A DNA stretch of 64,000 nucleotides, from the NCBI GenBank assembly GCA_963457665.1, contig OY735233.1, positions 29,396,637-29,460,636 on the forward strand. The letters are read 5' to 3'. Numbering within the stretch: position 1 is the first letter of the stretch; every line of letters starts with the position of its first letter. The position numbers and the translations under genes were made by a program. Shown here piece after piece: positions 14,991-64,000 of the stretch. This DNA comes from Thysanoteuthis rhombus (lineage: Eukaryota > Mollusca > Cephalopoda > Oegopsida > Thysanoteuthidae). The notes under the pieces are model-generated. The model ran no database searches, was not told where the DNA came from, and saw nothing but the letters and a program-made list of their open reading frames with translations.

Positions 14991-16830
14991 AGTGAGTCAA
15001 CTTTGGAACAAACCCATTTCGTCATAATCGAAAGAAATGTACATTCACATCGATCCACTTTGAATTTCTAAAATTATATGATTACTCGCTTAAGCTTGCT
15101 TTCAGGCATATCAATCAAGCATTTTTGATCAGTTCTGGCACCTTTGAAAACTCATAACAATCATTTTACTACCATATTCTGTACCAATATATCCGTGGCC
15201 CATGGACTATTTAAGACCAAGAAGATTTTCTTGGTTTTCACGAACTGGTACATATAAAAAGTGACACAATATTTTCAGCAACACAAAATATGCTAATTTC
15301 AATGGAGTTTTCTTTGTCCAAATCAAAAGGGGAAATATATCATGGTGCAAGTAACATGCTGGGGAAAAATCAGATGTTGTTTCTAAAATTTCAATAATCC
15401 CATCAAGAGACTTGGTTAACCACTGCCATGGGTATTCCTGAGAATAGATGTCATTAAAACAAACTCTCGACGCCTTGAAATTCTGTTTCCAAGAAATTAA
15501 TATTGATATATTGATCTATTGTTGGTGATTCAGCTCATCGTCGTCTTGTTTGGGTTCCATCCAAGAAAACATTGAATGAGAAGTTGATGCTGAGGAATAT
15601 ACACAGAAGAAGGCGTGCTCCTTTGACAAGTTCTGATTAACACGGTGGATTATTCGCACTTCGTGTTTTTTTAGAAAAATGTTTTTGCGAGAAATTGGCA
15701 ATGGCTGTTGGAGCGAAAATGGTGGGATGCAATTTACAAATGCTGAAATTTTCATTTTATTTTGGTCATCCACTCTGACAGAAGTTATCTTCATCATCAC
15801 ACAACTTGTTCAAAACTTTGCAAAGTCAGAATATGGCAGCTATTAGCGCACAATGGCTTGCTGCCCTGACTGTTCAGATATCCGGAGATATGCGAAGTGA
15901 TGCTTTCTTTGAATTGTTCTTCAAAACTGTAGCTGTGGAATAGAACTATACCCTCTGGTGGAAGAGCCTACTATGCCATGAAAGCAAAATAGTTGAAATT
16001 GTGTGACGATGGGACACATTGATAGTTGTTAAGGTGCTTCTACTTGCCATCATGTGAATGTTGAAGATCGTTACAAAAGGATTTACTTTGAAGTTATCGG
16101 TACTATAGTTCGTTCGTTTAAGGTAAGTTTCAAAACCTTTGCAATAGCATTCATAGCAAGCAAGACGGTGATGAGCTGAATCACCAGCGATAGATCAATG
16201 GAACCGATGTTAATATTAATGACTTAGGAACAGAATTTCAAGTCGTCGAGATTTGTTTCAATTTCATCTATGCACAGTTTAAAAAGCTATAAAATGAGGA
16301 AAGGTGCACATCCCAAACATAATTTTGATATGAAAACTGCTACACGTCAATGACTGCATCGCCGTAGTGATCATTTTTACAGATACATAAGACTAAAACA
16401 TTAGTACGATTGAGTATGTTAGAGGAGAGGTTCTATTCTCTGATATATTGAGCAGCTATGAGGAATAATCAGATTATTTGTTGCACTTCATGGGTACAGG
16501 TTCTCTACGTTTGGTAAATTCAATAAATCTGACTGTCAAATCTGATGACCTGAGTTTATATAGTAGTTTTTCTTTTATCAGCAAAGGCGCAGTTGATGTT
16601 GAAAAAGCAGAGTCGATCAAACATCATCCCTCATGATTTTAATATGTTGCTTTATCTTTGTATTTTTAGCATCATGTCATTATATATGTAGAGTGTTATT
16701 TGATATAGGGTATCATCATAATGTGTTGTATATGGATGTTATTTTTACTGTGCATCATTTAATTTGAGGAAACGGAGGGCTTACTCACTCAAGTGACCCG
16801 AAAACGTATTTGTCAACGAGGATACAATAG
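14991..16830. other. Intergenic, possibly decayed coding material
   Basis: 15,510-16,300 has moderate GC and short open patches on both strands, including 94 minus-strand codons at 15,516-15,800, but no motif I can name. It could be an old DNA-transposon or LINE relic; I cannot support either. Confidence 0.4.
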
Positions 16831-28948: not shown

Positions 28949-30849
28949 ACGAAGGTTTACTTTAAAATGTTGGTCCACGTGCTCAGAAACGAAAAAAGAC
29001 CTGCGAGACCGAAATTGCCTCTTATCTATGAAGCTTCTTTATATGAAAACAGCTCTAGAAAAGAGCACACAAGCCAATACTAATGAATTTTGTCTTCAAA
29101 TGGTAAATCAATTGATCCATAACCTATCTGAAAATGGCCCCCTTGAGAATGGCCCCCAAGTTGCTTTCGGTGATTATAAATTCAGGTGTAGTGCATCGCC
29201 CCAAGTTGGCAGTTACATATATCATTCCGTAATTATTCCTTTGTTTTCGCTCCATTAACTCAATTTCGGTGACTACTTGCATAAATAATATAGATATATT
29301 CGCTTAACCTAAACTGATGCAAGGTAACATTGATAAAGTATACTACAGAAATCAAACTCACTATCAATGGGTTGTAAGAAAACCGTTCCATGCGTAGCTT
29401 GAAGATAGCTAACTGAGATAACGAATATGTAACAAATACGCATGCGCATTACTGACTGCTAAGGCTGACTAGAACCTAAGGGGCAGATCTTTTCGCCTTC
29501 CAAGACAAGAGTCTATTTCTGACCTTTTCAACCAGAATAAACTGAATTATTCCTATAGTCGACATAAAACGCTCTTATAACTTGATGAAAACATGTAAAC
29601 AAATTAAACATAAAAGACGGAGATATTAAAAAATATCAGGTTCATTAGTCATCTATAAATGATGAACAAGGAAATACATATGATCTGATTGAGATAAAAG
29701 GTATGCTTTTCCTCATATGCATGGAGTTCATAATACCAGGAATAACACAAACATGGAATGAATGTAACTAGATGAAGTATGAGAAGGGAAGAGGAAAAAC
29801 GAAAAAACAATAGCGAATTGACAATGAGAGAAAATAAGAGAAAAAGGCTTTAAGAAACAAATGTCAACATTTTTATGCACCCAGAGGAAACACCCCTTTG
29901 TATTTCAAAGGAATTGCCCCTGCTTTAAATGGTTGCACTAAAATACTTACGCATAAAGCAGATAAGCGATTTAAAGAGAAAAAAAGACCTTACCCCTGTC
30001 TGACAATCTGGATGGCATTAATAACAACTTTTTTTAGCAACAGTTTCTTTTTTTTTGTCGAAGGTGCTACTACCAGAGCATGAATAGCCATCAGCCGGCG
30101 CCTGACAATAACTTCATTTGTGTATAAGAAAACAGTTGACTCTTTGTTGTTGGTATTAGTTAAGCACGCCCTTTGACGTGTGGGATAACCTTGAGGTTGT
30201 TTGGACAAGGTACAGCAACATCAAGTCTTTCAACGTGTGTGGACATGACATAAAAACGCCAGGCTTTTTCGTGCAAACTGCTTTTGAAGTTTTCTATGCC
30301 GGATCTGTGTCCTTCGATTGAGGCTTCCGACATGTTTCGTAAGTTATTCCTTGAATAGAGTACTGGAATCGAATGCATCATAAGATTAAAAGTAGATTCT
30401 AGATTGTTGCAGACTAGTTAGTGGCAATAATGTTAAACTATTTTTTAATCCGTGTAAACATCATTATTTATATTCTATAGAACGAAGATCTGTATTTTGA
30501 AAAACGGTTATCAAAATATATCGAAATATTCTATTGAAGGCCAGTGTCAAACTGATCTAAACAGTATCAAATATCTTGTACTTCGATATTTACAGTGTAT
30601 ATAGAGATTGATTAAAATAATGGACAGTAAAAATGGACAGCATATTACACTTGTTAACCATCACTAGACTTATTGAGAAACTAGAGATTTCACGAAATCT
30701 CTATTTTCCCAATTTTGCTGTAACATATTGCAAGATAGGAGATGAAGACACACACGCACACAGTTACAGGGGTAGAGAAAGATGGAGAAGATGCACTTAC
30801 AGCTTTCAGATTCATCTTCTTCAATCCATTTCGTGGTGGGCTCAAAAAA
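28949..30849. other. Intergenic, no recognised gene
   Basis: Unique DNA; short open frames lack family signatures or splice context. Confidence 0.6.
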
Positions 30850-38747: not shown

Positions 38748-41700
38748 GTATGAAAAATAGTCTTTTTACACGTATTCAAAAAACGAAGCACTTGTTTTTT
38801 TTTCCTCTTCGACGCTTCATTGCGAAAAAAGCTTTTTTTCCGGGGGTTATTTTGTATTTCTTGTCGAATACGTCAATTCGGAACTAAACCTAATGATTCA
38901 TACCAAATTTTGGTAATTATTCCGAATTGGTGAAATTAAACATTCTGTCGATATATTTTTTGGAATAAGTGGCTAGATTTTTAAATTTTTTCGGAAAATG
39001 AAAAGAGAGAAGCTGTAAAACTGAGAACATTTGAAACTGTATTTTATTAGATTTAACCGGAAAGGATATGTTTTATTTAATGTTTAAGGTTGAAGATAAG
39101 AACATAGAGTTAATTATAAAATCTACGTTCTCACCCTGATCTTAAACCTACCTATTAACCCTATCCCATCTACTCTGACCCTGAACCTACCTAGTGACCC
39201 TAACGTATATCCCAGCACTAACCCTATTGACATACCGTATTGACCCTGCTAAAGTAAACTGTATTCTTAGATCAAAAATAACGTTATTCCATCTCTGGTG
39301 GAAATCCAGCCACTTTCAGCCGCTAAAAATAGCCATAGCATTATCCAGATTACGACCCTCATAAATATTGCATAATATTCAAGCTTACCTATCCCAAACA
39401 ATTATAGGTGATTATAATATGACGCCATAGAAACAGGTGAACTGATCACATTGATTAATTCAAAATAATGCTTAATAAAATTATAAGTTTGAATATATTC
39501 TTGACTTGACTTCATTTTTAAAATGTTTGTTCTTCGTAATAAATTTATAGTTATTTATGGTTATAGATATAAAAATGGAATTTAAATGATTTTTCATTGT
39601 CGAATTTTCAATATTTTTTTAGTTACATAAAAAATGATAAATATGTCAAATAAGATTTGATCAAATTGAAAATGTGATGGAAAAAAAGATTTATTGCTTT
39701 CAAGCAATAATAAATATTACCTTAGTAAATTAGTTGGTTTGGGCAAAAGATGTTAAGGTTTTACGAGGGGGTTCTAGGTATACAGTAAAGTCTTCATTAG
39801 CAGACCTCGAACATACAAAAATCCTGGAAATTGAGAGATGAGTACATCGAGATCTGCACACTTCACAAAAAAAAGGACATAGTTGGATGATATGACATGG
39901 TCAATAAAAATAGTGACTGGCATAAGTATACTTAACAGTATTCACGTGGGGGGGGGAGATGCTAGTTTAATAAGAAGAGAGGAGGAGGTGGGTAGAGAAG
40001 AAGCTATTTAATTCAATAAGAAGTTGAGTAGGAGGAGAGAAAATAAATTTAATAAGAGAGGGAAAAAATAAAGGTAGTTTAATAGGTTATGAAGAGAGAG
40101 GGGAGAGGAAACCAGCTTGGTAGTTTGGTTAAAGGGTTGGAGACAAAAGAAAGGATTATCATTCCTCAATGGTTGTGTGCTATGTAAGCCATCTTTGAAA
40201 GCAACTACAAAAGGCCAGAATTGATGAGTTCATATTACGTTGAAGTTTTTCTGATTGTATTCTTTTTTTTTTATGAGTTTCATTTTTTGGATTTCTCTCT
40301 ATTATCCACATTAAAATCGGATAGATTAAAATAACTTTAACATTATAGTTATATAAGTTGTCCATCATCTGAAAAATAAAAAAGTTGAAGGATTTCTCCT
40401 TGATCTTGAAAAAAAAGATGAGAGAAAAGTATGAAGAGTTATCATTTAAATTTATTCTTTAAATTCATCCAATGTTGTTTCCATCTCTGATATTTCATTT
40501 TATATGATTCCATCTCTAATTCATAATTTGATTCAATAGTTAAATATTTTCTGATAAATATATATAACAAATGCTGTAATCCCGTCTATATTATTTCATT
40601 TAATCCTCATAAATTTATGCATATCAAAATGTAGATATTCTAGTCAATTTTGGCTTCAGTAGTTGCTTTTAAAGATGGTTGACATAGGTGGTGACTCTTT
40701 ACAAAATATTGCCAAAAAGTTGGGTAAGATTTTCAAATATGATTTAATCCATGTTTCATCCATTTTTCTATTTGAATAAAAACCTTGAAAGGCCATAGAT
40801 ATTGGAAGGGATGAGGTAGAGAATGATTAGATACAGATGAAGGTTAAGAAGATCTGAGACATGAGATAATCTTAATTATCAACACCTGTGGAAGGTCCAT
40901 AGGTCCAACTAGAGAATAAGTATTCATGATAACATCTATAGTATTTCTTGATTAAATAATGATTCCCAAAGAATGTTTTTTGGAATTGCTTTAATTTGTT
41001 TTGTACTTGATACATTTTTTAGCTTTCAAAATGCTTTCAAAGTTGGTGATGTGAATAGTATTTTTATGATAATGTAACCTCAATAAAAAAAATTCTTATG
41101 ATAGAATTGTGATTCATAATTTACTCAATAACATAATTTGATTTATATCAGAATATGTTTCACAATATTTCTTTTTAATATGCTTTCCATCATTTATTCC
41201 TCAATGTTGATCCTTTCATTTACTTATAGAGTTCATCTTCTTGATGTAGCTTTCACTAAAACTAGGTTAAACAATCACAAGTCTACACACAAGTAGGTCT
41301 AATAAAGTTCAGCTTTTAATTCAATAAATTAGAAAAATGTCTGTGTAATTTCATACATGAGATTCCTTAGTTACTTTGGCTGGGTCATAAATTCAAATCT
41401 CACTGGAACTAATTATTTGGTATTTGTATATTTGATACATGTCTGATGATAAATAATCCTAAAAATAAGTTTGTGTGTGCATATATACATACATATATAG
41501 AGATAGATATTTGTATATGTATGTTAACATGTGTATATTTATAATCAATCTAAAGCAATTTATTATTGTTCACCATATTTATTAATTCAAAATATCATTT
41601 TAGTTAATTTATGCCAATATCGATAGAAGGATTTTGTTGAAAATATCACTAATACTTTTCAACTATATATTTATATATATAAATTTGGATGGCTGTGTGC

Positions 41701-44325
41701 ATGCCCTTAATGAGAGAGGATGCAAAAAAGAAAAGGGGCTTGGAATGCATGGGTTTGAACCATAGAAATATTATGACTAGAATACTCACTTGATCACATG
41801 GCTTATTATTTTCACCTGTTAGTGATGGCCGTCTCATGGACGAGTGAGATTGCATCAAAGTGAATGTTAATCATAGAAATGATGTTAACTTGTGCATTGA
41901 TATAAGCAAAGACGTGAGAAAAATATGAAAGATGGGCATAGCAAAAGCTCAAGGATGACTGTAGGTAAGGGAAATTTTGCTTATTAGAACAGGCATCGAT
42001 TTTCAAGCTTCAAATCAATACCTAAACAAAGTTTTATAGTCCTGAACTTCTAGCCATGTCAACAAAATGTACACAGTATTTAGAAGAGGAAAAGTGTATA
42101 AGATATACTTGATCTGCTGACATTTCTCAATTCTTCAGTGAAAGTTAGCATCAGTCACAGTTTCAAAACTATACATACCATATCAAAAGAGCTGTAAATT
42201 TTAGAGGTTTGATTGAAAATGCATAATATTAAGTAAGATTTCAAAACCATTAAAGATACAAACCTGATATATTTTTTGAATAGAAATAAAGATTATTGTC
42301 CACCAGTTTTTAACTGTTTACCTGATTTTGAATCGAATTGATGAACACCAACATTTTGTTAAATAGCAGCTTTTAGGATTGGACAAAATAATTGATTCTC
42401 CATTTCAATAACCAATTTTTATTTTTAATGTAGAGTTGCTCCACCTTTAGAATAAGTAACAACTTCAGATTTTTTTTCTTTCTTTCAGGGAAAGTGGTCC
42501 CTATTGTTGAGTTTCACACCCTCGCCCACTCAATATTAAAAACAGTGCACAAATAACAATTTAACAATTTCATCAATTATTTATTTACTTCTGTTTTTCT
42601 TTCATTAATTCTCTTATTTCTTTTTATTGGTGCATCTTTTCTAAAATCGTATGAGCATGGATGTAAAAACTTGTCAATTTCCAATTGGGACCACTTTCCC
42701 TATACATACAGAAATATCAGTTTATTTACAACTTCAATCATACATTTGCAAAGAGAAAAAAAGTGATAATTTATTGGAATGTTCAAATATGTAGTTTTTC
42801 ATACTCAGCAACTCACTATTAAAGTTTTGTTTATTTACGATATCTGCAATAAACACCATTTATCGTCTCATCTTCTCTATTTTTAGAATGCAATGAGCAG
42901 CGATTATATCTTTGATACAGAGGGTGAGAGTAACAGCCAATGTTATTAGAGAGGGTGAGAATAAAAGAGAGATTAAAACACCATTTTTTCTTTAAGACTG
43001 ATATTAAACTTCATTCATAAGCCAACAGCTGGAGCAGCCACTAACATTGTGACCATTTTGGGATGAGCTTGAATTGAAAATCAACCCCCCTTCCCAATAT
43101 TTTTCAAAATTTAACTTATTAGAAACCTGCCTCGGGCTCCCTGGTATACTATATGAAAATTGCATAGTGTTATGTTTGTTGGTTTTTGTAGTAGGCTGTC
43201 ACATACAGACAGATGGACAGACTTCAAGTAAATTATAAGAAGAAAATGGATTCCTTTTATAAATTAGCTGTAAAGGAGAAATCTTGCTAAATTTAGTCCT
43301 TTTTAAAGACAGATTCAGCCATCAATATAAAATAACATACTTAGCTACCCTGCGTAAAATAGGAAGCAAATTTTTGTATTCTGTGTCAACTTTTCAAGGC
43401 TTATCGAGTTGAATATTTGTTTAACTTTTTCCTCAGTTTAATCTTTTTCAAATTGTGTATTTTTTATGTATTCACTGCTGCATGCCGACAGTAAAGATTT
43501 ATATAAAAGTACAAGGCAGGATTCCTGACATTGGAAAAAAGTTATTTTTTTTGCTATTCAAAGTTGTAACTTTCAATTATTATTCTTTTGAAATTTATTC
43601 ATTTGGTGTTTGAATTTGATTGAATTTACAATTTATCAAGAAAAAATAATTAATTTATTTGTTGATGATGTTTTGTGAGTTCTGAATTCAAAATTTTCTT
43701 TGTAGTTGTTTTCTGGTTATTTAAGGAAAAAATATGTCTTACACTTTGTGTTTTATTATTTACAAAGCACAAAGAAGCCACAAGACAATAAATTAGAGAA
43801 GTTAATCGAGATAGAAATAAAGATTATATTTTCGAAGAATAAGCAAATTATAGCTATAGAACAAATAAGAAAAAATATTTGAAAAAAGCGTGCTACTGTG
43901 ATAATTAAATAAAAAATAACTAAATTCTCTGGTACTCTTTGAAAAACAAAAGAATGAAGAAATCTCTAGAACATTAAAAATTCTGATAATGAATCAATGT
44001 TACGACTGAATAACTAGAAATATGATATCAAACACAAGCAATTATCTTCATGCTATCTGATGATAAAACAAGTGAGAAAATACTGATTACTTGAACAATT
44101 TTATTTCTAATGTAAAGTAAAAGTAAATAAATGTGGAATGTAAGCAGAAATGCATTGTCTATTTGGAAATCTTATTCAGTGAAAAAATGCTCAACTATTG
44201 TAATGAACTAAATTTTCATATAACATTGGTAAATGTATGAATAAATTCAAGACCATACAGGAGAGTGTATTTTGGAAAGGATTCATTATTTTTCATTCTT
44301 TCATTTTATTATTTGTTTGGATTGG

Positions 44326-44379
<54 letters not shown>

Positions 44380-47300
44380 TATATATATATGTGTGTGTAA
44401 TAGTGATCCTGAAAAATTGAAAGTCTTCTGGGTTTTTTTATTTGCAGTCTAATAAGAGCACAGTGGAGCAAGCTGCCTCTCCAAGTCCAATTAAAGTGGA
44501 ATCAGATCAGACAATATTTCTAAAGATTATTGCAAAACCAGGTGCAAGACAAAATTCTGTGACAGGTATCTATCTCTCTTAATAATTCATCCCCATCTGC
44601 TGGGAAGCTATCATTTGTCAAATCCATTTCAAAGATGATGGTGAATTCTGCCTAATATCATCTTAATATAATCTCACTTTAAGACAATTTCATTAAATTT
44701 TCTCTGAATTGTTCATATTCTATGAAAAGTATCATGAGTGATGGACTTTGGTTTAGATTTTAATGAACAATTTAATTTAGAAGAGCATCAACTAAAGCTA
44801 TCCCCAAATTTAGTTGGCTTAGTAGAAATATCTTATCAAGGAATCCATGTTATGTTAAAGATTTCTGAAGCAATAATACAACCACATTTGGAGTATTGTG
44901 TACAAGCTTGGGTTCCACGTGTTAGACCTGGTAATTGAATTTAATTTTGAAATCAGAGACTGTATGGAGATGATTTACCAGAATGGAGTGATTTAAGTTT
45001 TATAACTTGAATCTCTCCATTCTGGTAAATTTTCTTTGTATGGTCTCTGATTAAAAAACTAGATAAACTAGAAACATTAGGTATGACTAATATGTCTGAA
45101 AGGAGGAGACTTAATCGAAACTTCCAAGATAAGTGGCTGTACAAATTATCAAATTATAATGTTTAATAAATCAGATTGTACTGGAAATTTACTTGTTAGT
45201 CCATTACAAAAGCAAAGTCACTAAAACAAATTGATTATTTTTTCCAAAAGAATTTTGAAATACTGGAATAGTTTACCATTTTATATAGAAAATAGTACAA
45301 GTATAAATAATGATAAAAAGAGTAACCTGATTAAATTTAGATCATTTGGGATAGAAAATAAATTCATGATGCAATTTTGGGAGTATCTATCTGAAATATA
45401 CGAAAGAATTTCGAGAATATGAATAAATAAAATGTGCCCCATAAATGTTTCTCTGTTCTGGTGAGATTGTGATTTTTTTTCTTCAAAGTAGAAGAATTTT
45501 GATAAAATCTCAATCTATGTCCTGAATTTTGAAATTATTAGTTTTCTCCAGTAAAAGTCATTTCGTATCCAATCAGATCAATTTGACCCTTTACCAAGGT
45601 TAACTTTGATGTGTTGGAAATCTGCACTACAAGTAGAAGAATAATTCATTACATTGAATGAAAAAAATCAAACCCTTAATTTTTTTTTCTGTCTGATTTC
45701 TGCAGATATTTCAGATGAAGGAATTGGAATCCAGATAGCAGCACCTCCAGTGGATGGTGAGGCAAACTCTGAATTGATCAAATACATCTCTAAGTTGTTT
45801 GAAATACGTAAATCTGATGTAAACCTCGATAAGGTTAGTATTTATCTACCTTTCAAAGCCAGCATGAATGATTTGACAGGAAAAATAATCAATCTCCAGT
45901 AGTGCTTGCCCTTTATAACTCCTGCATCCAATGATCACCTGGTCCTAACAACCAATTTCCCAATACACAGGCGCTTTGTAATGTTTATTGACCTTTTGTT
46001 GATGACCTCTGCAAAACACAATAGTGACTGAAAAAAAAAAAAAGAAGATTTTCTGACCACAGACTACTGAAGCCATGCTCATATTGAATAGTAAAATTTA
46101 ATGACATGAAACAGGTGATAAATTAGAAGAAACCTTAGTAATCTGCCCCTTCTTGTAATTAATTCACACCTTTCAATCATACACCATCCAAGGGGAAATT
46201 CTTCAGCATAAATATGCTTGAATAAACAAACCAAGCATATTCTGAACTGGAAAAATTTCTCTCCATAATTAATCATTTACTTGACCATCTTTTTTTTCTC
46301 TTCCTCATCTCTCTATGGTACCAATTTTATCTTTTCACTGATGCTATCAAAGATTACCTAGATATTATGTAGGTTCATATCCAGCGTCTTTTTAGTCAAT
46401 GTATGAAAAGCCTGGATTTAAAGAAATCAAACTAATTTCTCTCTCCCTCTTCTCTTTCCCCCTTTTCCTTTGCTCATTTTCTTCTTTCTCTCTATCTTTC
46501 TCTTTTCCTTTTCCTATGTTTCTCTCATTTCTTCTATCTCTCTGATTTTTCTTTCCCTCTCACTTCCACATTAGGCTAGACAGACTTCAGTGATGGACCT
46601 TTTCAAGCCCAAAGTGTAGGAAAGTGACATTTCCAATCTTGGCATGATATCCAGAAATCTGCCTATCAGGAAGTTTGCACTTCTTTTTTCTTTCAGGAAT
46701 TCTCTTATTTCTTTTCATTTTTAATAAAAAAAAATCATTTAAAAAAATTAATAATCATCAAAATGTAATTTGCCCTTCATATAGTTTCCAGGGTAATGTT
46801 ATAACATTTTATTATGATCCTTTACACATCTTACTTCCGCTTTTTCTTTAATTCCCTTTTCCTTTTCATTTTTAATGAATAAAAAATTCTTGATCTTAAT
46901 TTAGAATAAAACAAAACATCAAACAAATTTTCAATGATAAAAAATGAAAAGAAACAAAAGAATTCATGAAAGAGAAACAACTGTGAATAGAGAAATAACA
47001 TTTGAACAAATTGTTTCTTGAATTGTTTTGACCTGCTTACCTATAGATATTTTCATTTCATTTTAGTTTTTTAATTTGCAAAAGACATAGATTTTATTTG
47101 TTGTTTTTTCTTCTATTTATTACTCTATTGCATGTGATGTACATTGTACTGAGGGGAATGTATGGTCAGGACAAAGATAGTTATGAACCTCTATTGAAAG
47201 ACCACCTGCAGTGGGTGACCAATTTTGGTTTGCAGCATGTAAATAGCTGGTACTACTGTATATCCTAATGTATATATGCAAGAATGCTGTTTGTAAAGTA

Positions 47301-48469
47301 CCTTCATTGCATGCATTATTTAGACTGAACGTCCAAAAGAAAGCCAATTCTTATATTTCAGAGAAGTCATGGGCAATCAGTATAATGGACAGAATGTGGA
47401 AGTTTTTGCCCACTGTCAAATTTCAAGATGAGTTCTTATTTGTTCAGTCTTTGAACAGTGAATGAGTATAGATCTAGAAATTACTCTGCCAGAAATTTTA
47501 TTTGAAACACCTCCTATAACATGACATATTTTTCTGTTATCTTGTGGGATCCACTCTGCGAGAGTCACTCTTATCAATATTTGATAATATGTGGACAAAT
47601 ACAGCACATTTTTTATTCAAGACAGTAGAAAAAAAAGTACGTTATTAAGCAACTGATGGTCAAAAAGTCGGTCTTTTGACATGGATCCTTCTGAACACAT
47701 CTGTGCCATTTCAGATCATGAAATAAAGAAAACCCTCTACAAAATAGGATTTTCTTTGTTTCCTATATAACTTAGTTATATCCCACATGGCAGATCTTTT
47801 AAATTTGATACTAAAAGTAAAGTAAGATATTTGCATTATAAAATATTCTTAAATTGCTGAGATCATTGAATAAAAGCTGTTGTTTGAAATTAGAAACATC
47901 TGTTCACTTTTGTTTTTATGTTTGTGTGTGTATAATAAGCATATATATATATATATATATATAGGTTTTTCTTTATTACTGTAATTAATCTTCAGATGCT
48001 ATCATATATATGTATATAAAACACACCAATTAAATATAATTATTCAAATACATTTTAAAATTGGGTGTTGATTACCTGCTCTGTCATTTTAAGAATTTAT
48101 TTTATAATATCTTCCAAAGTTGTCTTAAATGTAAAATCAAATTATTTTTGAGAAATTCCATTGTCTTTATTTTCTTTATAAGATCAAAGAATAAAGGAAG
48201 ACACATTTATCAGCAAAAACTTTGATTAGTTATGATTTATCTTAGAATATATTTTATACTTTTAAATCATAAACAAAATCATTATCTTTTTTTATATATT
48301 TGCATGTTATTTTTTAAAAATTGTACATGTTTTACTTATGTTATCATATAACTCAGTTTTCTGTCTTTTTCAGGGCTCCAAATCCCGTTCAAAAACTCTC
48401 AAGATCCATGGAGGGATTACAAAAGAGACTATTTTAGCAAAACTTCAACAAGAAATTAAAAATTCCTGA
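38658..48469 (+). CDS. C15orf40: UPF0235/DUF167 (YggU-like) protein, C15orf40 homologue, four exons
   Basis: Coding exons are 38,658-38,747, 44,448-44,565, 45,706-45,833 and 48,374-48,469, joining in frame to 143 residues. The DUF167 fold is visible: [12 protein letters not shown] (exon 2), [18 protein letters not shown] and KSDVNLDK (exon 3), [11 protein letters not shown] (exon 4). These match the conserved AKPG, APP-x-GEAN and G-x-SR-x-K blocks of the family in order. All introns are GT-AG, with pyrimidine-rich acceptors. The family is found from bacteria to animals; its biochemical role is not established. The first 20 residues (ATG 38,658 to before the ATG at 38,718) hold K5, R11 and K16 and no acidic residue, like a mitochondrial presequence. 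From the second ATG the protein is 123 residues, close to the short vertebrate form as I recall it. The gene looks intact. Confidence 0.93.
38874..38929. repeat. Nested inverted repeats in intron 1
   Basis: Outer arms CAATTCGGA (38,874) and TCCGAATTG (38,921) enclose a second inverted repeat, TACCAAA-T-TTTGGTA (38,901-38,915). It lies about 125 bp after exon 1. Confidence 0.8.
38930..42486. other. Intron 1, mostly unique AT-rich DNA
   Basis: 39,120-39,250 has scattered ACCCT/TGACCCT words, too irregular to be telomeric. 39,950-40,110 is a purine-rich repeat with AGTTTAATAAGAAGAGAGG-like units. I see nothing else I can name. Confidence 0.6.
39950..40110. repeat. Purine-rich degenerate tandem repeat (family E, copy 1)
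   Basis: Three or four units of about 45 bp built on TTTAATAAGA plus a G/A-rich stretch. Related in style to 48,890-48,995. Confidence 0.6.
42487..42701. mobile_element. MITE-like element with perfect 15-bp terminal inverted repeats (family D, copy 1)
   Basis: AGGGAAAGTGGTCCC at 42,487-42,501 is the exact reverse complement of 42,687-42,701, and pairing continues inward with one mismatch. The element is 215 bp and non-coding. The inside has GAGTTTCACACCCTCGCCC, an ACTCAAT piece and AGTGCACAA, shared with 55,555-55,800. No target-site duplication is obvious, so the superfamily is undetermined. Confidence 0.65.
43080..43245 (+). repeat. Dispersed repeat family C, copy 1
   Basis: Shares AACCCCCCTT, a TTTTCAAAA piece, GGTTTTTGTAG, CAGACAGA and AATTATAA, in the same order, with 59,120-59,310. 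Confidence 0.6.
44329..44398. repeat. (TA)n(TG)n microsatellite in intron 1
   Basis: It lies 50 bp upstream of the exon 2 acceptor. Confidence 0.97.
44448..44565 (+). CDS. C15orf40: C15orf40-like exon 2
   Basis: 118 bp, preceded by TTTTTTTATTTGCAG and followed by GTATCT. It starts in phase 0 and ends in phase 1. It encodes a variable linker and the first strand with the family's AKPGA block. Confidence 0.93.
44730..45422 (+). mobile_element. CR1/L2-like LINE relic in intron 2
   Basis: C-terminal reverse-transcriptase remnants on the gene's strand: [15 protein letters not shown], then [17 protein letters not shown] (the PHLEYC-x-QAW signature of CR1/L2-type elements), [17 protein letters not shown] and [17 protein letters not shown] near the end. 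Several stops and frame changes make it a decayed fragment. It has no catalytic core. Confidence 0.75.
44951..45052 (+). other. 102-nt near-perfect hairpin, 49-bp stem with 4-nt loop
   Basis: Arms 44,951-44,999 and 45,004-45,052 pair without any indel: 40 Watson-Crick pairs, seven G:U pairs and two U:U mismatches, with loop TTAT. All seven transition-type differences are wobbles when read on the plus strand; on the minus strand they would be A:C mismatches. It lies within intron 2 of the gene and within the LINE relic. It may be a hairpin RNA or miRNA-like precursor, or an inverted duplication. The stem is long and the loop short for a standard animal pre-miRNA. Confidence 0.75.
45706..45833 (+). 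CDS. C15orf40: C15orf40-like exon 3
   Basis: 128 bp, preceded by a long pyrimidine tract ending CTGCAG and followed by GTTAGT. The split codon restores an aspartate (VT-D-IS). It encodes [19 protein letters not shown] and KSDVNLDK, the most conserved segment. Confidence 0.95.
45834..48373. other. Intron 3, no recognised feature beyond short simple repeats
   Basis: TC-rich stretch at about 46,435-46,565, T- and A-rich tracts, and a short TA run at 47,940-47,963. Open frames at 47,120-47,607 on both strands show no family motif. Confidence 0.6.
48374..48469 (+). CDS. C15orf40: C15orf40-like exon 4 (terminal)
   Basis: Preceded by TCTGTCTTTTTCAG. It encodes [14 protein letters not shown] and the C-terminal helix ending EIKNS, then TGA at 48,467-48,469. 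Confidence 0.95.
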   Translation, partial: GSKSRSKTLKIHGGITKETILAKLQQEIKNS

Positions 48470-48543
48470 CACAAAAGTTTGTTAGAATTCATTATTTTAA
48501 TTCTCCCCACCTATAAGCTGGATTTTGGTGGTATTTTCCTATT

Positions 48544-48549
48544 ATTAAA
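48544..48549 (+). promoter_or_regulatory. Candidate polyadenylation signal ATTAAA
   Basis: 75 bp after the stop codon. ATTAAA is the commonest variant of AATAAA, and I found no AATAAA nearby. Real cleavage could be further downstream. Confidence 0.35.
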
Positions 48550-48889
48550 AGCAAGCTATCATATAAGCAAAAGCAAATTATAAATCATCCAGTTTTATGA
48601 CTTGTCTTCTTCAATTCTTTTAATAGATTTTTATTTTAGATTTTTACTTTGTATTAGAGTAAAAGATACATTTAAAAAGAATTTTTTTCTGATTCCATTT
48701 TTTCACTTTTGACATCACAAAAGACAAAACTAAAACATTGAAAAATCATTGTGGGTTCTTTATGAAGTACTTCCTATGTTTTCATTTCATTATAGCCCCT
48801 CATCTATGTGGAAGTCTCTTTGCCATATTTCGTAAATGCACCACAACAGGCTGATGGCTGCTACTGACCTTGTGTGTAACATACATGGT

Positions 48890-48995
48890 AGGAAAGGAGG
48901 GGGAGAAAAGAAAGGTATTCAATAAGAGGGTAGAAATAGGGAGGGGAAAAAAGATAGGTAGATCAATGAGAAGGTAGGAAGAGAGTGGGGGGAAA
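48890..48995. repeat. Purine-rich repeat (family E, copy 2)
   Basis: Two or three units like TTCAATAAGAGGGTAG with GGGGAGAAAAGA, resembling 39,950-40,110 in intron 1. Confidence 0.55.
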
Positions 48996-49299
48996 AGATG
49001 TTACATGTTGAAGAAAGCAATCAAATATTGCAGTAGTTTCCATTTAATAATATTCCAAAGAGAAAATCCCCAAAAGAAAAGGATTTCATAATCAAGTTCC
49101 TGCCTCAGTGAACTCAAAATATCTTCATAAAAAAAGAGTAAAGTTAGGTAAATCTTTGTTAGGAAAATTATTCTGACGGCATCAAATAGGGTTTTATCTG
49201 AATAAAGAATATTACTCTCAAATAAACTCTGTAATTCAAGTCAGCTTATGGCAATAAGGGAGGTAACTCCAAGCAAAATTATACTTTTCACCTAAATAC

Positions 49300-50330
49300 G
49301 ATTGGAGAAATCTCTGTATACCCGGCGATTATTCGACACCTGGCCATTGCATGAATTTGAGATTCGACATATATCAGTCAGCACACAAGGCAGTGCCGTG
49401 TCGAGTTTCAAGTTATTTGGATCAGCAGTTCTTCAGAAATCCAATAAAATTTTAAAGATTACTGATATTTCCCCATTTCTGTATGTGATCACCTTTGACT
49501 CTCACCTAACTCTTAGAATACAATTTGCAGAAAGAAAAAAGCCTTCTGATAAGTTTTGCTATTTTGTGAGAAAAAATGGCAACTCAGTTTTTTCATCTGG
49601 CTACAATTGAAGAAATCTCTCCATATGCACCACGTTTACTCAACAATTTGCCATTATACAAAGTTGATATTTGCCAGATGTATTGGTCAGTATACAAGGT
49701 AGACTTGGTTTTGAAATTGTTTGAATCAGCAGTTCTTGAAAACTCTAATAAATGATGGTGGATCTTTCTCCATAGTTTCTGTAAATTATCTCCACTGACT
49801 TGAGAATTATCTAAATTTAGCCATAAAATATCCAAGTTGAGCATTACTGACAACAAGTAACTGAATACTTTGAAGCCATAGTTTTATATGACAGACGGAA
49901 AATCACTTTAAATGACAACTTTGGCAGACTTCTCCTCACACCATTAAGTCCACTCCTTTCCAAACATGCACCAAGAATATCCAACTGCAAACGAAGAAAC
50001 ATTTGTTGATTATGTGGTAACTGGCCATTGTATGAAGTTGATATTCACCAGATATACTACTTAGAACACAAGGCAGTGCAGTGTCAAGTTTGAATTTCAA
50101 GATTATAGAATTTTCCTCATGGTTTCTACAAATTATCTCCCTTGACTTCTATTCTTTGAATTGTATAATTTAGATATGAAATATCTGAGTTGGCAACCTT
50201 GGGAAGAAGTGACTGAAAATACTTCAAAGCCATAGTTCCATATGACAAACAGGAAATGATTTTACTTGCAATCATAGTAGGCTGCTCCATACACCATACA
50301 GTCAGGCCCCAAACATGCACCTTTATTCTG
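49300..50330. repeat. Three degenerate tandem copies of a 310-400-bp unit
   Basis: GAAGAAATCTCT-like starts, GGCCATTG(C/T)ATGAA, a CAGATATA/CAGATGTATT piece, ACACAAGGCAGTGC, ATCAGCAGTTCTT and CCAAACATGCACC recur in order near 49,302, 49,610 and 49,995. One frame of unit 1 is open for 102 codons but is not conserved in the other units, so I treat it as non-coding. Confidence 0.75.
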
Positions 50331-51077
50331 AATTATGAATATCATTGATAAGATGTTTTAGAATTCCTTTCCATGTAGCTAATCTTTTTCTAAGTGAATT
50401 TATGAAGTAACATTCTGCCTTTATAACAGATTAATTGATCCCGAAAACAACATTCCCAGATAAACAGGTTTCCCCTCTATCCAAAAGTAGAGTATTACTT
50501 TGAAAGCTTTTTAGAAGCCAAAATAGTAAAAAGCTAATATGCAATTACCTTGAATTCATTTGGAAAAATGTTTTGCCTTCCCAGACCACCAAAACAGTGA
50601 TGATGATATATTAAACTGAGTCATCAGAGGTTTTAGTGTTGGTAAATACAGGAGACTGGAGTGTAGACGAGAGCGGGGAAAAAAGTTGGCACTGCCTCTA
50701 TAATGACTCAGAGCAAAACAATTTTCACTTTTCTTCTTTTTCTGAAAAAATGGCACAAAGCAAACTTTTGAAAAACAGGAACTATTAGGATTTGAATTCT
50801 ATTGCATGATTTTTTTTTTTGAAAAGGAACTAAAAAGCTTTAAAAATGTTAAATGGTTGGTTGGAGATATTTTTATGGGCAAGTTTATTCAATCAGAAGA
50901 GCCCATACTCACAGAGGGAAAACAAAAAAAGATCCCATAGTTCAACTCAATTCCTCGACTTCTATGGAGAGAATTTCCCTCTCAAATGATCAGAGTTATT
51001 AAAACAAAGAAATTAATAACAAAAACTAATAGAGACTGACTTTTTTGCCAATCAAACAGTAGGAAACAATAATGTTC
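50331..51077. other. Intergenic, no recognised gene
   Basis: AT-rich unique DNA. Confidence 0.6.
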
Positions 51078-51560
51078 CTTGTTCAGTATAGGAGCCAAAA
51101 AAAATTCTTCAAAGATATTCAGGAAGATATTCTAAAAGACTTGTGTGCTAAGAATTATTATGAAATGGTCTCAATTTATGAAGACTTTGATTAATAACAA
51201 TAAAATCAAAAGTTACTAGCATAATATGTTGTAACTTACAAATGACTTGATTAATGTGATAAAAAAAGTTTTTGTTTGTGTTACCATAATCCAGCTAAAT
51301 CAGCAAATAGCAGGAATATTTTTTTTTACTGTTACACCCTCTAAATGCTCTAACTTGAGGAATGAAATGAATCTGGGTGAATCTCAACATTTATATCATG
51401 TTTTAAGAGGATGTCCAATTTATGATATAAATATAATATAGAATTAGACCCTTATTTTGAGTACAGTTATAGTGATATCACCAAGGAATTGTATGACTTG
51501 AGAGAATGTATAATATTCTATTATGAAGTCATCATATAGAAATAATTTGATAATACTTTT
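51078..51560 (+). pseudogene. Possible decayed LINE C-terminal region
   Basis: An open patch FFKDIQEDILKDLC ... YYEMVSIYEDFD (51,078-51,194) and a later ESQHLYHVLRGCPIYD near 51,380-51,430 recall the H-x-L-x-CP-x-Y segment at the end of several LINE reverse transcriptases. The frames are broken and the first cysteine pair is not intact. The 51,156-51,245 part has a related copy at 8,616-8,705. A weak call. Confidence 0.35.
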
Positions 51561-60561: not shown

Positions 60562-63500
60562 TCAGTCTCTTAGCGTCCGTCGTTGGACATAGACCTTCCC
60601 CAGGATTTGCCACACTTCTCTATCGTGGGCGTCACGGAGCCAGTACTTCCTGAACCTGTCTAGCTCGTCTCTCCATCAAACATTTTGCCGGCCTCGGTTG
60701 CGCATGTGGTCTCGGGGAATCAACGTTGTGAGTCGTGATGTCCATCGATTGTCAGCCATTCTTGCAACATGGCCAGCCCACAGCCATTTGAGATTTTTAA
60801 TGGATTCTATGATGTCTCTAACTCTTGTCTTTTCCCAGATGTGCTGTGCTGTTTTGTGGTCTCTCCATGTGAGGCCCAGCATTATTCTTTCATGTGCGCG
60901 TTGCATGGTTCTCAACTTACGGGTCTGTCTCTTGGTTAAGTTCCATGTTTCAGCCCCATAAGTGACCATTGGGAGGATGCATTGGTTATACACCCTTCAC
61001 TTTAGGATTAATGGGATCTTATTATTTTTGAAGGTTGAGCTTGCTCTGCCAAAGGCTTGCCATCCTAGTGTGATTCTTCGTTTGATTTCTTCTTCTTTTG
61101 AGGGTCTCATGGAGATTCATTGCCCTAGGTAGATGTAGTGGTCTACTTTCTCGAGTTCTGTGTCCTCGATTTCGATCTTAGTGTTTTTATCTCCAATGTG
61201 GTTGTTGCACATGATCTTCGTCTTGCTGAAGTTCATGTGTAGGCCGACTTTCTTGCTCTCTTCATTTAGTTCATCTATCATTAGTTGGAGGTCGCGTAGT
61301 TTCTCTGCGAAAAGGGCTATGTCGTCTGCAAATCTGAGGTTGCTCAGATACTCACCGTCTATTTTAATTCCTTTACTCTCCCAGTCTTCTGAAAATCATC
61401 TCGAGGCAGGCTGTGAAGAGTTTAGGTGAGCTGGTATCACCTTGTCTTACTCCTTTCTGGAGCTGGAAGGGGTCCGAGTCTTTATGTACCCTGATAAATG
61501 AGCGGCCGTGATTGTATATATGTTTCAACACTTCAACATATACTGGATCTACACCTTGCTGACTGATGGCCTCCATGACCTTAGGGATTTCTACTGAGTC
61601 AAACCCCTTTTTGAAGTCGATAAATGCTACGGCAAGTGGTAGTTTATACTCTGCTGCTTTTTCTTTCAGTTGATTTATCGAGTGCAGGTGGTCCATGGTC
61701 GAGTAGCTTCTTCTAAAGCCAGCCTGTTCACGTGGCTGGTTTTCATCGAGTGTTTTTGTGATTCGGTTGGTGATGATCTTTGTGAAAAGTTTGTATACAC
61801 AGTTGAGTAGGCTTATAAGCCTATAGTTGTTGAGGTCTTTCGGGTTTCCTTTTATATAAAAGCATTATGATAGCAGTGTTCCAATCGTCTGGGACTTTAC
61901 TGTGTTTTAGACACAAGTTGAAGAGGACGGCCAGTTTCCTAGTGATGATTTTACCTGCTTTTCGGAGTAGGTCGATGGTGATGTTGTCTGGTCCAGGGGC
62001 AGTTCCTTTCTTCGTCTGTTTAATGGCTTCTTTCACCTCCCACGGAGTTACTTTTGGGAAGTCCTCGAGTTGTTTGCCCGTGTCTTGCGTATCTTGCTCA
62101 TTGTTTTGCAGTCCTTGTTTGGACGAATGAAGTTTTTGGTAGAATTCTCTGGCACGTTCGACAATCCTGTCTCTGTCTGTTGTTAGGTTTCCATTTTCCT
62201 CGAGTATGCTAGTTATTTGCCTTCGTCCCGAGTTGAGGAGTTTGTTTATAGCTTTGAAGCCCCGACCTTTTTCAAGAGTTGATTCAATGACTGCTGTTGT
62301 GTATCTCCTTCTGTCTTCTCTTCGTTTCTTCTTGATTAATTTGTTTAGTTCAGCCTCTTCAATTTTCTCTCTCGTTGTTGTCGGTGGCTTGAGGTTTCTG
62401 CGTTTTTCCATGAGATTTTTAGTCTCATCCGAGATTTTGCTAATGGATTGTTTGCTCATTGGCTTGAATGTAGAGGCTACTTCAATTATTGACGCTGTCA
62501 TTTTGTTGCTTAGTTCGTTGATGTTGGTGTTGTCTTGTTCAGTAAGAATTCTGAATCTGTTCCTCAATTCGAGCTTGAAAGATTGAACGTGCTCTTTTGG
62601 TATGTTTAGAGGCTGCGGTTTTGTATGGAACATTTTCCTGCGTTCTTTATTGGTGTTTATTTGTACTTTATATCGTACCATTCTGTGGTCGCAGCCTACA
62701 TTGACTTGATTTAGGACTTGGATGTCCTTGACGATATCGTTTTTGTCCGTTAGGATGTAGTCTATTTCGTTCCTTGTTTCGTGATTGGGGCTCTTCCAAG
62801 TCCATTTCCTATTGGGTCCCTTCTTGAAGAAGGTGTTCAGGATTTTGAATCCATTAGCTGTTGCAAAGTTTACAAGATCTTCTCCTCTCTCGTTACGTAT
62901 TTTGTATCCAAATTTGCCGACGCAATTTTCATTTCCTTGTCCTACCTGTGCGTTGAAGTCTCCCATGATAACATTGAAGTGTTTTCTGGTGTCTTGGAGT
63001 AGGGAGTTCAAGTCATCATAGAAGTTGTCTATTTCTTGTTGGGTTGATTGCGAAGTGGGAGCGTAGACTTGGATTATATTGAGTTTGTATCGTTTTGAAA
63101 GTTGTATGGTGACGCTGGCTACTCGGTCAGAGATGGCTTTGAAGCCAGTTATATTGTCTTTCAGGTTCTTATTGATGAGAAAGCCAACTCCACTTTGTTT
63201 TACTTTCTCTTTACCGTAGCTGTAAAGAAGATGCTTGCTTCTCAGTTCGATTAGTTCTTCTCCAGGTCTTCTTACCTCACTAATACCTATGATGTCCCAT
63301 TTGACATTTCTGATTTCACTTTCTAGATCAGTTAGGTGCATGTCAGTTGACAGTGTTCTGACGTTGTATGTGCCTATGTATAAATTTGTCCTCTTGTTGA
63401 CAGTCTTAGAGTTCTGTTGAAATGGTCGTTGTTTGAGCGGTGACTCAGTAGGAGCAGGTGGTCCCTTGATGAAGGATTCGGTGAAGGATTTGGGTAGTCG

Positions 63501-63800
63501 CTTTCGGAGCACATCACCCCTACCCAAAGTAAGTGATGTGGCTGAGTCTTTTGGGGCCGATGACCCAGCAGGAACTGACGTGCTCTTGGTGTAGTGTTTG
63601 GGTAGTCGCCATTGGAGCACATCACCCCCACCCAAAGCAAGTGATGTGGCTTGGCCTTTTGGTACCGAGGTCCCAGCAGGAACGGCCGATATAATATTTG
63701 GTGTGCAAATCATGGGGAGTAATGGGCCATGCCCTGCCACGCTGGCCCAGGACATGTTGGCAGGAGGTCTGGTGGATTGTCCACTGGGGGACAGTGGCAA
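60562..63800 (-). pseudogene. Broken RTE polyprotein: AP endonuclease plus reverse transcriptase
   Basis: The first 659 codons (63,800-61,821) are intact. After a 150-residue repeat-containing leader come the endonuclease motifs YIGTYNVRTL, GISEVRR, IIQVYAPTS, MGDFNAQVG, EIDYILTD and VGCDHRMV. The RT start KKGTAPGPDNI precedes a one-base frameshift near 61,845. The middle ([25 protein letters not shown]) is open to a second frameshift near 61,390; then FADDIALFA, the catalytic site, is in a third frame. TGA stops at 61,117-61,119, 60,997-60,999 and 60,676-60,678 interrupt the C-terminal part (WAGHVARMADNRW near 60,760). The natural stop at 60,562-60,564 is the first TGA of the tail repeat. 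The copy is non-autonomous as it stands. Confidence 0.9.
63484..63705 (-). repeat. 111-bp tandem duplication in the RTE leader
   Basis: TTTGGGTAGTCGC recurs at about 63,487 and 63,598. The 111-bp period keeps frame, so the leader has two 37-residue copies of a VPAG..APK..ATSL..G..GDVL..RLPK unit. Function unknown. Confidence 0.85.
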
Positions 63801-64000
63801 AAGAGCTCCATCGGCTCTTGATACACATCCAAACTGTTCTTGTGAAACGAGAGTGGATGTTCGGAGCTACAAGGTAAAAAAAAAATATTTTTGATATTTT
63901 TTTTTTTTTCCACAATTGATCCATTTTCCATATAATTTGGATGCAAATTCCAGTGGGAGCGACTTGGAGAATACCTCTCCCTTATATATTGAGGAACCCT

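Follow-up and report, generated by a model that had tools for sequence, protein, structure and literature searches.

The intron of a C15orf40-like gene holds a 49-bp hairpin (44951-45052) that was probably made by a short-range template-switch (snap-back) mutation within an old CR1-like LINE fragment, its arms having evolved neutrally since. We infer the replication mechanism, the 5-bp seed and the neutrality from the arrangement of the arms and the LINE reading frame. All coordinates refer to the window, the whole 64,000-nt stretch of DNA that was analysed.

An intronic 49-bp stem

The hairpin is composed of two ungapped arms of 49 nt, 44951-44999 and 45004-45052, separated by a 4-nt loop. 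Of the 49 positions, 9 differ between the arms, and on the plus strand the stem contains 40 Watson-Crick, seven G:U and two U:U pairs. A sequence-only reading had described this stem and its four-base loop in the same terms, and the recount matched it exactly.

44951..44999, plus strand: left arm, probably the resident LINE sense sequence; reads SETVWR*FTRME*FK
45000..45003, plus strand: loop TTAT, placed by the arm coordinates and the fold
45004..45052, minus strand: right arm, likely the inverted copy of the left; its reverse complement reads as 15 residues, stop-free
44961/45042, 44962/45041, 44965/45038, 44966/45037, 44967/45036, 44972/45031 and 44994/45009, plus strand: G:U pairs
44971/45032 and 44989/45014, plus strand: U:U pairs

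Folding of the locus, a check proposed with that reading, recovered the stem. The plus-strand hairpin has a minimum free energy of −65.2 kcal/mol compared with a shuffle mean of −19.3 (z −14.8; 0 of 200 shuffles as good), and the 49-bp stem stays unchanged when the full intron of 1,140 nt is folded to its minimum free energy. The minus-strand hairpin is weaker than the plus (−46.6 kcal/mol, z −11.6). When the window was scanned for hairpins whose arms are ungapped and whose loops measure 0-59 nt, 44951-45052 had the top score among those not made mainly of TA/CA-type repeat. The same scan showed another compact hairpin outside simple repeats, at 30672-30713, with 20-nt arms and a 2-nt loop.

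The hairpin is located between two exons of a DUF167 gene.

44448..44565, plus strand: upstream exon of the DUF167 (C15orf40-like) gene, joining in frame with the downstream exon
44566..45705, plus strand: GT...AG intron of 1,140 nt, containing the LINE and the hairpin
45706..45833, plus strand: downstream exon of the DUF167 gene; the joined exons match PF02594

The peptide encoded by the joined exons matches PF02594 (DUF167) with an E-value of 8.8e-18. The GT/AG ends, together with in-frame exons matching DUF167, therefore place the hairpin within an intron transcribed on the plus strand, as had been proposed from the sequence. The repeats have an appearance that suggests cephalopod DNA. The surroundings of the gene, 40001-51500, are sharply CpG-poor: of the 23 bins into which they divide at 500 nt each, 22 have a CpG observed/expected ratio of at most 0.46. 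In 2-kb bins, the ratio is 0.13-0.31 in the six bins spanning 40-52 kb compared to 0.49-0.87 in the 26 other bins, and the intron itself has 5 CpG sites (ratio 0.21). We infer that the depletion across about 40.0-51.5 kb is the trace expected from a germline-methylated gene body, and the extent of the gene may be readable from the raw sequence as the CpG-poor domain 40001-51500.

A decayed CR1-like LINE upstream of and probably around the hairpin

The intron carries the remains of a LINE, upstream of the stem and probably also downstream of it.

44807..45350, plus strand: decayed CR1-like LINE, C-terminal part, approximate limits, drawn from frame readings and the CR1 relative L001
44882-44917, plus strand: 12-residue LINE motif upstream of the hairpin, part of a 19-residue reading at 44867-44923

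The reading at 44867-44923 is what we take to be the C-terminal motif of a LINE reverse transcriptase. The 12-residue motif stops 33 nt ahead of the hairpin, and right after the right arm, from 45053, a 20-residue reading follows in the frame of the upstream motif. This 20-residue reading and GDLIE...YWNSLP, which is in another frame, both downstream of the hairpin, are presumably LINE-like as well.

L001 is the sole LINE relative retrieved, by a motif search of genome contigs that gave one match for one pattern. It contains a 32-residue reading, drops the part after TKM and then resumes, in other frames, further along the C-terminal region. Its record is titled Candidatus Arthromitus SFB-turkey and carries the CR1 LINE sequence at one contig end; the CR1 sequence in this bacterial contig is probably host DNA within the assembly. 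The 12-residue motif and IQRKFTRM at our locus correspond to a 13-residue motif and VQRRATKM in L001. Both motifs that agree are short; the 12-residue one had served to retrieve the relative, and VQRRATKM lay outside the retrieving pattern. Unlike CR1-like LINEs, the remnant is decayed and frame-shifted, bears an inverted copy, and lacks a significant L001 match in its 3′ part: a further C-terminal stretch of L001 reached a best score of 30 against the sequence 3′ of the hairpin, a value that 593 of the 2000 shuffled queries and 65 of the 576 control frames attained as well. With reverse-transcriptase motifs of the C-terminal region both upstream of and at the hairpin, the presence of a decayed CR1-like LINE at this locus, suggested earlier, is upheld.

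Three LINE motif patterns gave 0 matches in viral contigs, and a tblastn of the CR1 peptide against plasmids gave a single weak match, to a gene with a helicase-associated annotation. A 43-residue LINE piece had 0 hits in a PDB search and 0 in Pfam, and the LINE peptide strings had no match when sought in the literature. The excerpt of PMC8967140, on cephalopod LINEs, contains nothing on this locus. Better-preserved reverse-transcriptase elements with long open frames are present at 61373-63866 and 236-2449, both on the minus strand, with RVT_1 matches in 61373-61864 and 1589-2449.

The arms as probable duplicated LINE sequence

Translation of the arms hints at which of them is resident. Compared with VQRRATKM of L001, IQRKFTRM, which the reverse-complemented right arm gives at about the corresponding place, has a BLOSUM62 score of 25 (1 of 5000 dinucleotide shuffles as good) and VWR*FTRM, given in that frame by the left arm, has a score of 13 (108 of 5000), in a comparison that spans 8 residues and a single relative that has lost the part following TKM. 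When all six frames of the window were scanned, one further place, 35036, matched VQRRATKM with a score of 25. AW and the Q codon are separated by 53 nt here and by 42 nt in L001, a difference of 11 nt. A tblastn of the arm peptide within the window was circular, as the query came from the window itself, and was excluded as evidence.

Going by these frames, the left arm is likely the resident LINE sequence, and the right arm its inverted copy, in which the LINE reading is better retained. The hairpin had been suggested to replace about 35 residues of the LINE. This is not supported, because the residues in question can be read in the arms; if the left arm is the LINE and the right arm the copy, the supposedly missing residues are likely doubled rather than missing. 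The accompanying suggestion of an inverted duplication agrees with the right arm being an adjacent reverse-complement copy, complementary at 40 of 49 positions.

Template switching as the likely origin

The two arms lie only 4 nt apart over their full 49 nt, the adjacency expected of a template switch. There is no target-site duplication, as the 20-nt flanks share a word of 3 nt at most, and the first 30 matches listed by a blastn of the window comprised just the hairpin and stretches of 10-15 nt. An adjacent reverse-complement copy with neither a target-site duplication nor a second listed copy in the window is the signature of a template switch. These same observations bear on a different origin, in which the hairpin would be an inserted foldback (MITE-like) element or a part of the LINE subfamily itself. 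The 102-nt near-perfect palindrome does resemble a foldback element, whereas the flanks, the absence of a second copy among the blastn matches listed for the 64 kb and the LINE coding sequence read in the arms all argue against insertion, and we regard this origin as unlikely. The arm divergence of 9/49 (18%) suggests that the event is not recent and that the hairpin is not a library or sequencing chimera.

44995..45008, plus strand: AAGTT-TTAT-AACTT, a possible snap-back seed that would have existed before the event

In the template-switch model, a polymerase would have turned back on itself after copying some 49 nt of LINE sequence, with the 5-bp repeat AAGTT/AACTT as a possible primer. Using its own strand as template, it would have synthesised about 44 nt more before returning to the original template slightly downstream. 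The product of this single step would be a perfect or near-perfect palindrome, and neutral drift of the arms would have brought them to 9 differences in 49. The intron transcript should fold and may be a substrate for ADAR or Dicer, with an evolved function unnecessary. Our confidence in this explanation was lowered for the non-significant downstream comparison with L001.

The mechanism has precedent. In the portions of PMC8794818 available, template switching with hairpin-loop priming is described and MIR633 is named as a likely product; the largest template-switch-like pattern given there is 59 bp, but it failed the quality control of its authors. The abridged text of PMC7954356 reports that template-switch events are enriched in introns, for great-ape events in human coordinates. 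The hairpins covered in these excerpts resemble ours in the one-step reverse-complement copy beside its source and in the near-perfect stem. They differ in that the state before the event is derived there from orthologous alignment and here from one LINE relative and the reading frame. As far as the account of MIR633 in that excerpt goes, the proposed birth of the stem is alike, while our hairpin has a very small loop and is known from sequence alone. A literature search for miRNAs born by template switching gave no dedicated paper among the matches listed.

A one-sided pattern of mismatches

The earlier reading had pointed out that all transition differences are wobble pairs on the plus strand, at a chance of about 1 in 128. 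The recount agreed (7/7), and neutral simulation from a perfect palindrome, with seven transitions and two transversions, gave P = 0.0074-0.0076 for this outcome, a one-sided and post hoc probability. In each of the nine mismatches both partners are G or T, an outcome for which symmetry gives P = 0.0005. Seven of the nine fall inside 12 nt (P = 0.005), and because of this clustering they may not be independent events.

Four control segments of inverted repeats, hand-picked from the best 25 of 50 pairs with simple repeats left out, together showed G:T 15, A:C 9, A:A 6 and T:T 1. In one of them, 15510-15552/16157-16199, all five mismatches are G:T on the plus strand. This segment is the inner of two ungapped segments, the one with five G:T only, in an inverted repeat of about 90 nt (15462-15552 and 16157-16254).

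The direction of change was read from the stop codons at 44971 and 44989 and from the Q codon at 44965-44966, and so leans on one relative. Four changes could be directed, all in the left arm: two A-to-T, one C-to-T and one A-to-G; the other five are ambiguous. Under neutral drift, the one-sided wobble pattern is accountable only as chance.

A transcription-linked bias on the coding strand, with C-to-T, A-to-G and A-to-T changes, would produce all nine differences, including both U:U pairs, and the intron is CpG-depleted. Two sites where TG lies opposite TG are the remains expected of plus-strand CpG decay in both arms, and the intron with the hairpin taken out has slightly more TG than CA (70 and 55). 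The composition of the region argues against such a bias. G+T is 51.1% over 44566-45695 (52.2% to the left and 49.0% to the right of the hairpin), and 40001-51500 has TG 743, CA 721 and 50.4% G+T, which is no strand bias. The mismatches of another inverted repeat within this domain, 46685-46735/46927-46977, are G:T 1, A:C 3, A:A 3 and A:G 2. CpG decay may account for the two TG-opposite-TG sites, in keeping with the CpG-poor gene, but at 44965-44966 it would require an ancestral CGR codon, against Q in L001. The C-to-T asymmetry raised in the sequence-only reading is unsupported by the composition of either the intron or the gene-sized CpG-poor domain, and we consider a transcription-linked origin of the nine differences distinctly improbable.

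The other source considered for the wobbles was ADAR editing of the transcript in its double-stranded form, with the edits then fixed or reverse-transcribed. Each G:U is formally derivable from A:U, and, in the part of PMC9699675 at hand, most A-to-I editing in octopus is reported in introns and 3′UTRs, which would count here if the DNA were from an octopus. The coding frame speaks against this route: A-to-G changes alone would make the ancestral codon at 44965-44967 a TAA stop, where the CR1 relative has Q, and this earlier suggestion is accordingly disfavoured. The two U:U pairs are not products of A-to-G change, and RNA edits reach DNA only by way of a retrocopy. An editing origin is extremely unlikely.

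Possible selection on an RNA hairpin

The same pattern could reflect function. The hairpin would then be a young miRNA or hpRNA precursor born from the LINE, in which purifying selection on pairing made every transition a plus-strand G:U. Pairing is kept at 47 of 49 positions (P of about 0.0074 under neutral drift with the same nine changes), and the plus strand has the more stable fold. Both transversions are unpaired U:U, so pairing selection covers seven of the nine changes. An Rfam scan of the whole window gave 0 matches at the gathering score, where a new family would not match. The usual pri-miRNA has a roomy loop, and a 4-nt loop atop a 49-bp stem is atypical.

The miRNA criteria in the excerpt of PMC12594335 allow at most 7 mismatches per 20-26-nt duplex and no large asymmetric bulge; our stem has two unpaired positions in 49 and no bulge. 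The route itself has a precedent in MIR633, which apparently arose via template switching in the account excerpted from PMC8794818, and 90 novel miRNA families are reported for octopus in the available part of PMC9699675, again of weight if the DNA were from an octopus. We consider a LINE-born precursor shaped by pairing selection very unlikely. A combined history has a slim chance of being right: a hairpin born in the LINE by template switching would have been retained since then in the intron, serving as a small-RNA precursor or an editing substrate, and selection on RNA pairing would have let only G:U mutations through. If true, the retained hairpin would be a newborn RNA gene caught early. 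The wobble skew is real and suggestive, but it is unexplained and the sample is too small to show function.

Significance

The most likely account of the hairpin is a duplication by template switching within a dead LINE. The hairpin is best regarded as neutral, and its wobble skew is unexplained but weak. It is a candidate for the one-step birth of a long RNA hairpin, and the LINE frame hints at the original arm and allows some of the substitutions to be polarised. A single hairpin demonstrates neither pairing selection nor mutation bias; the wobble skew, if found across many such hairpins, would test one against the other.
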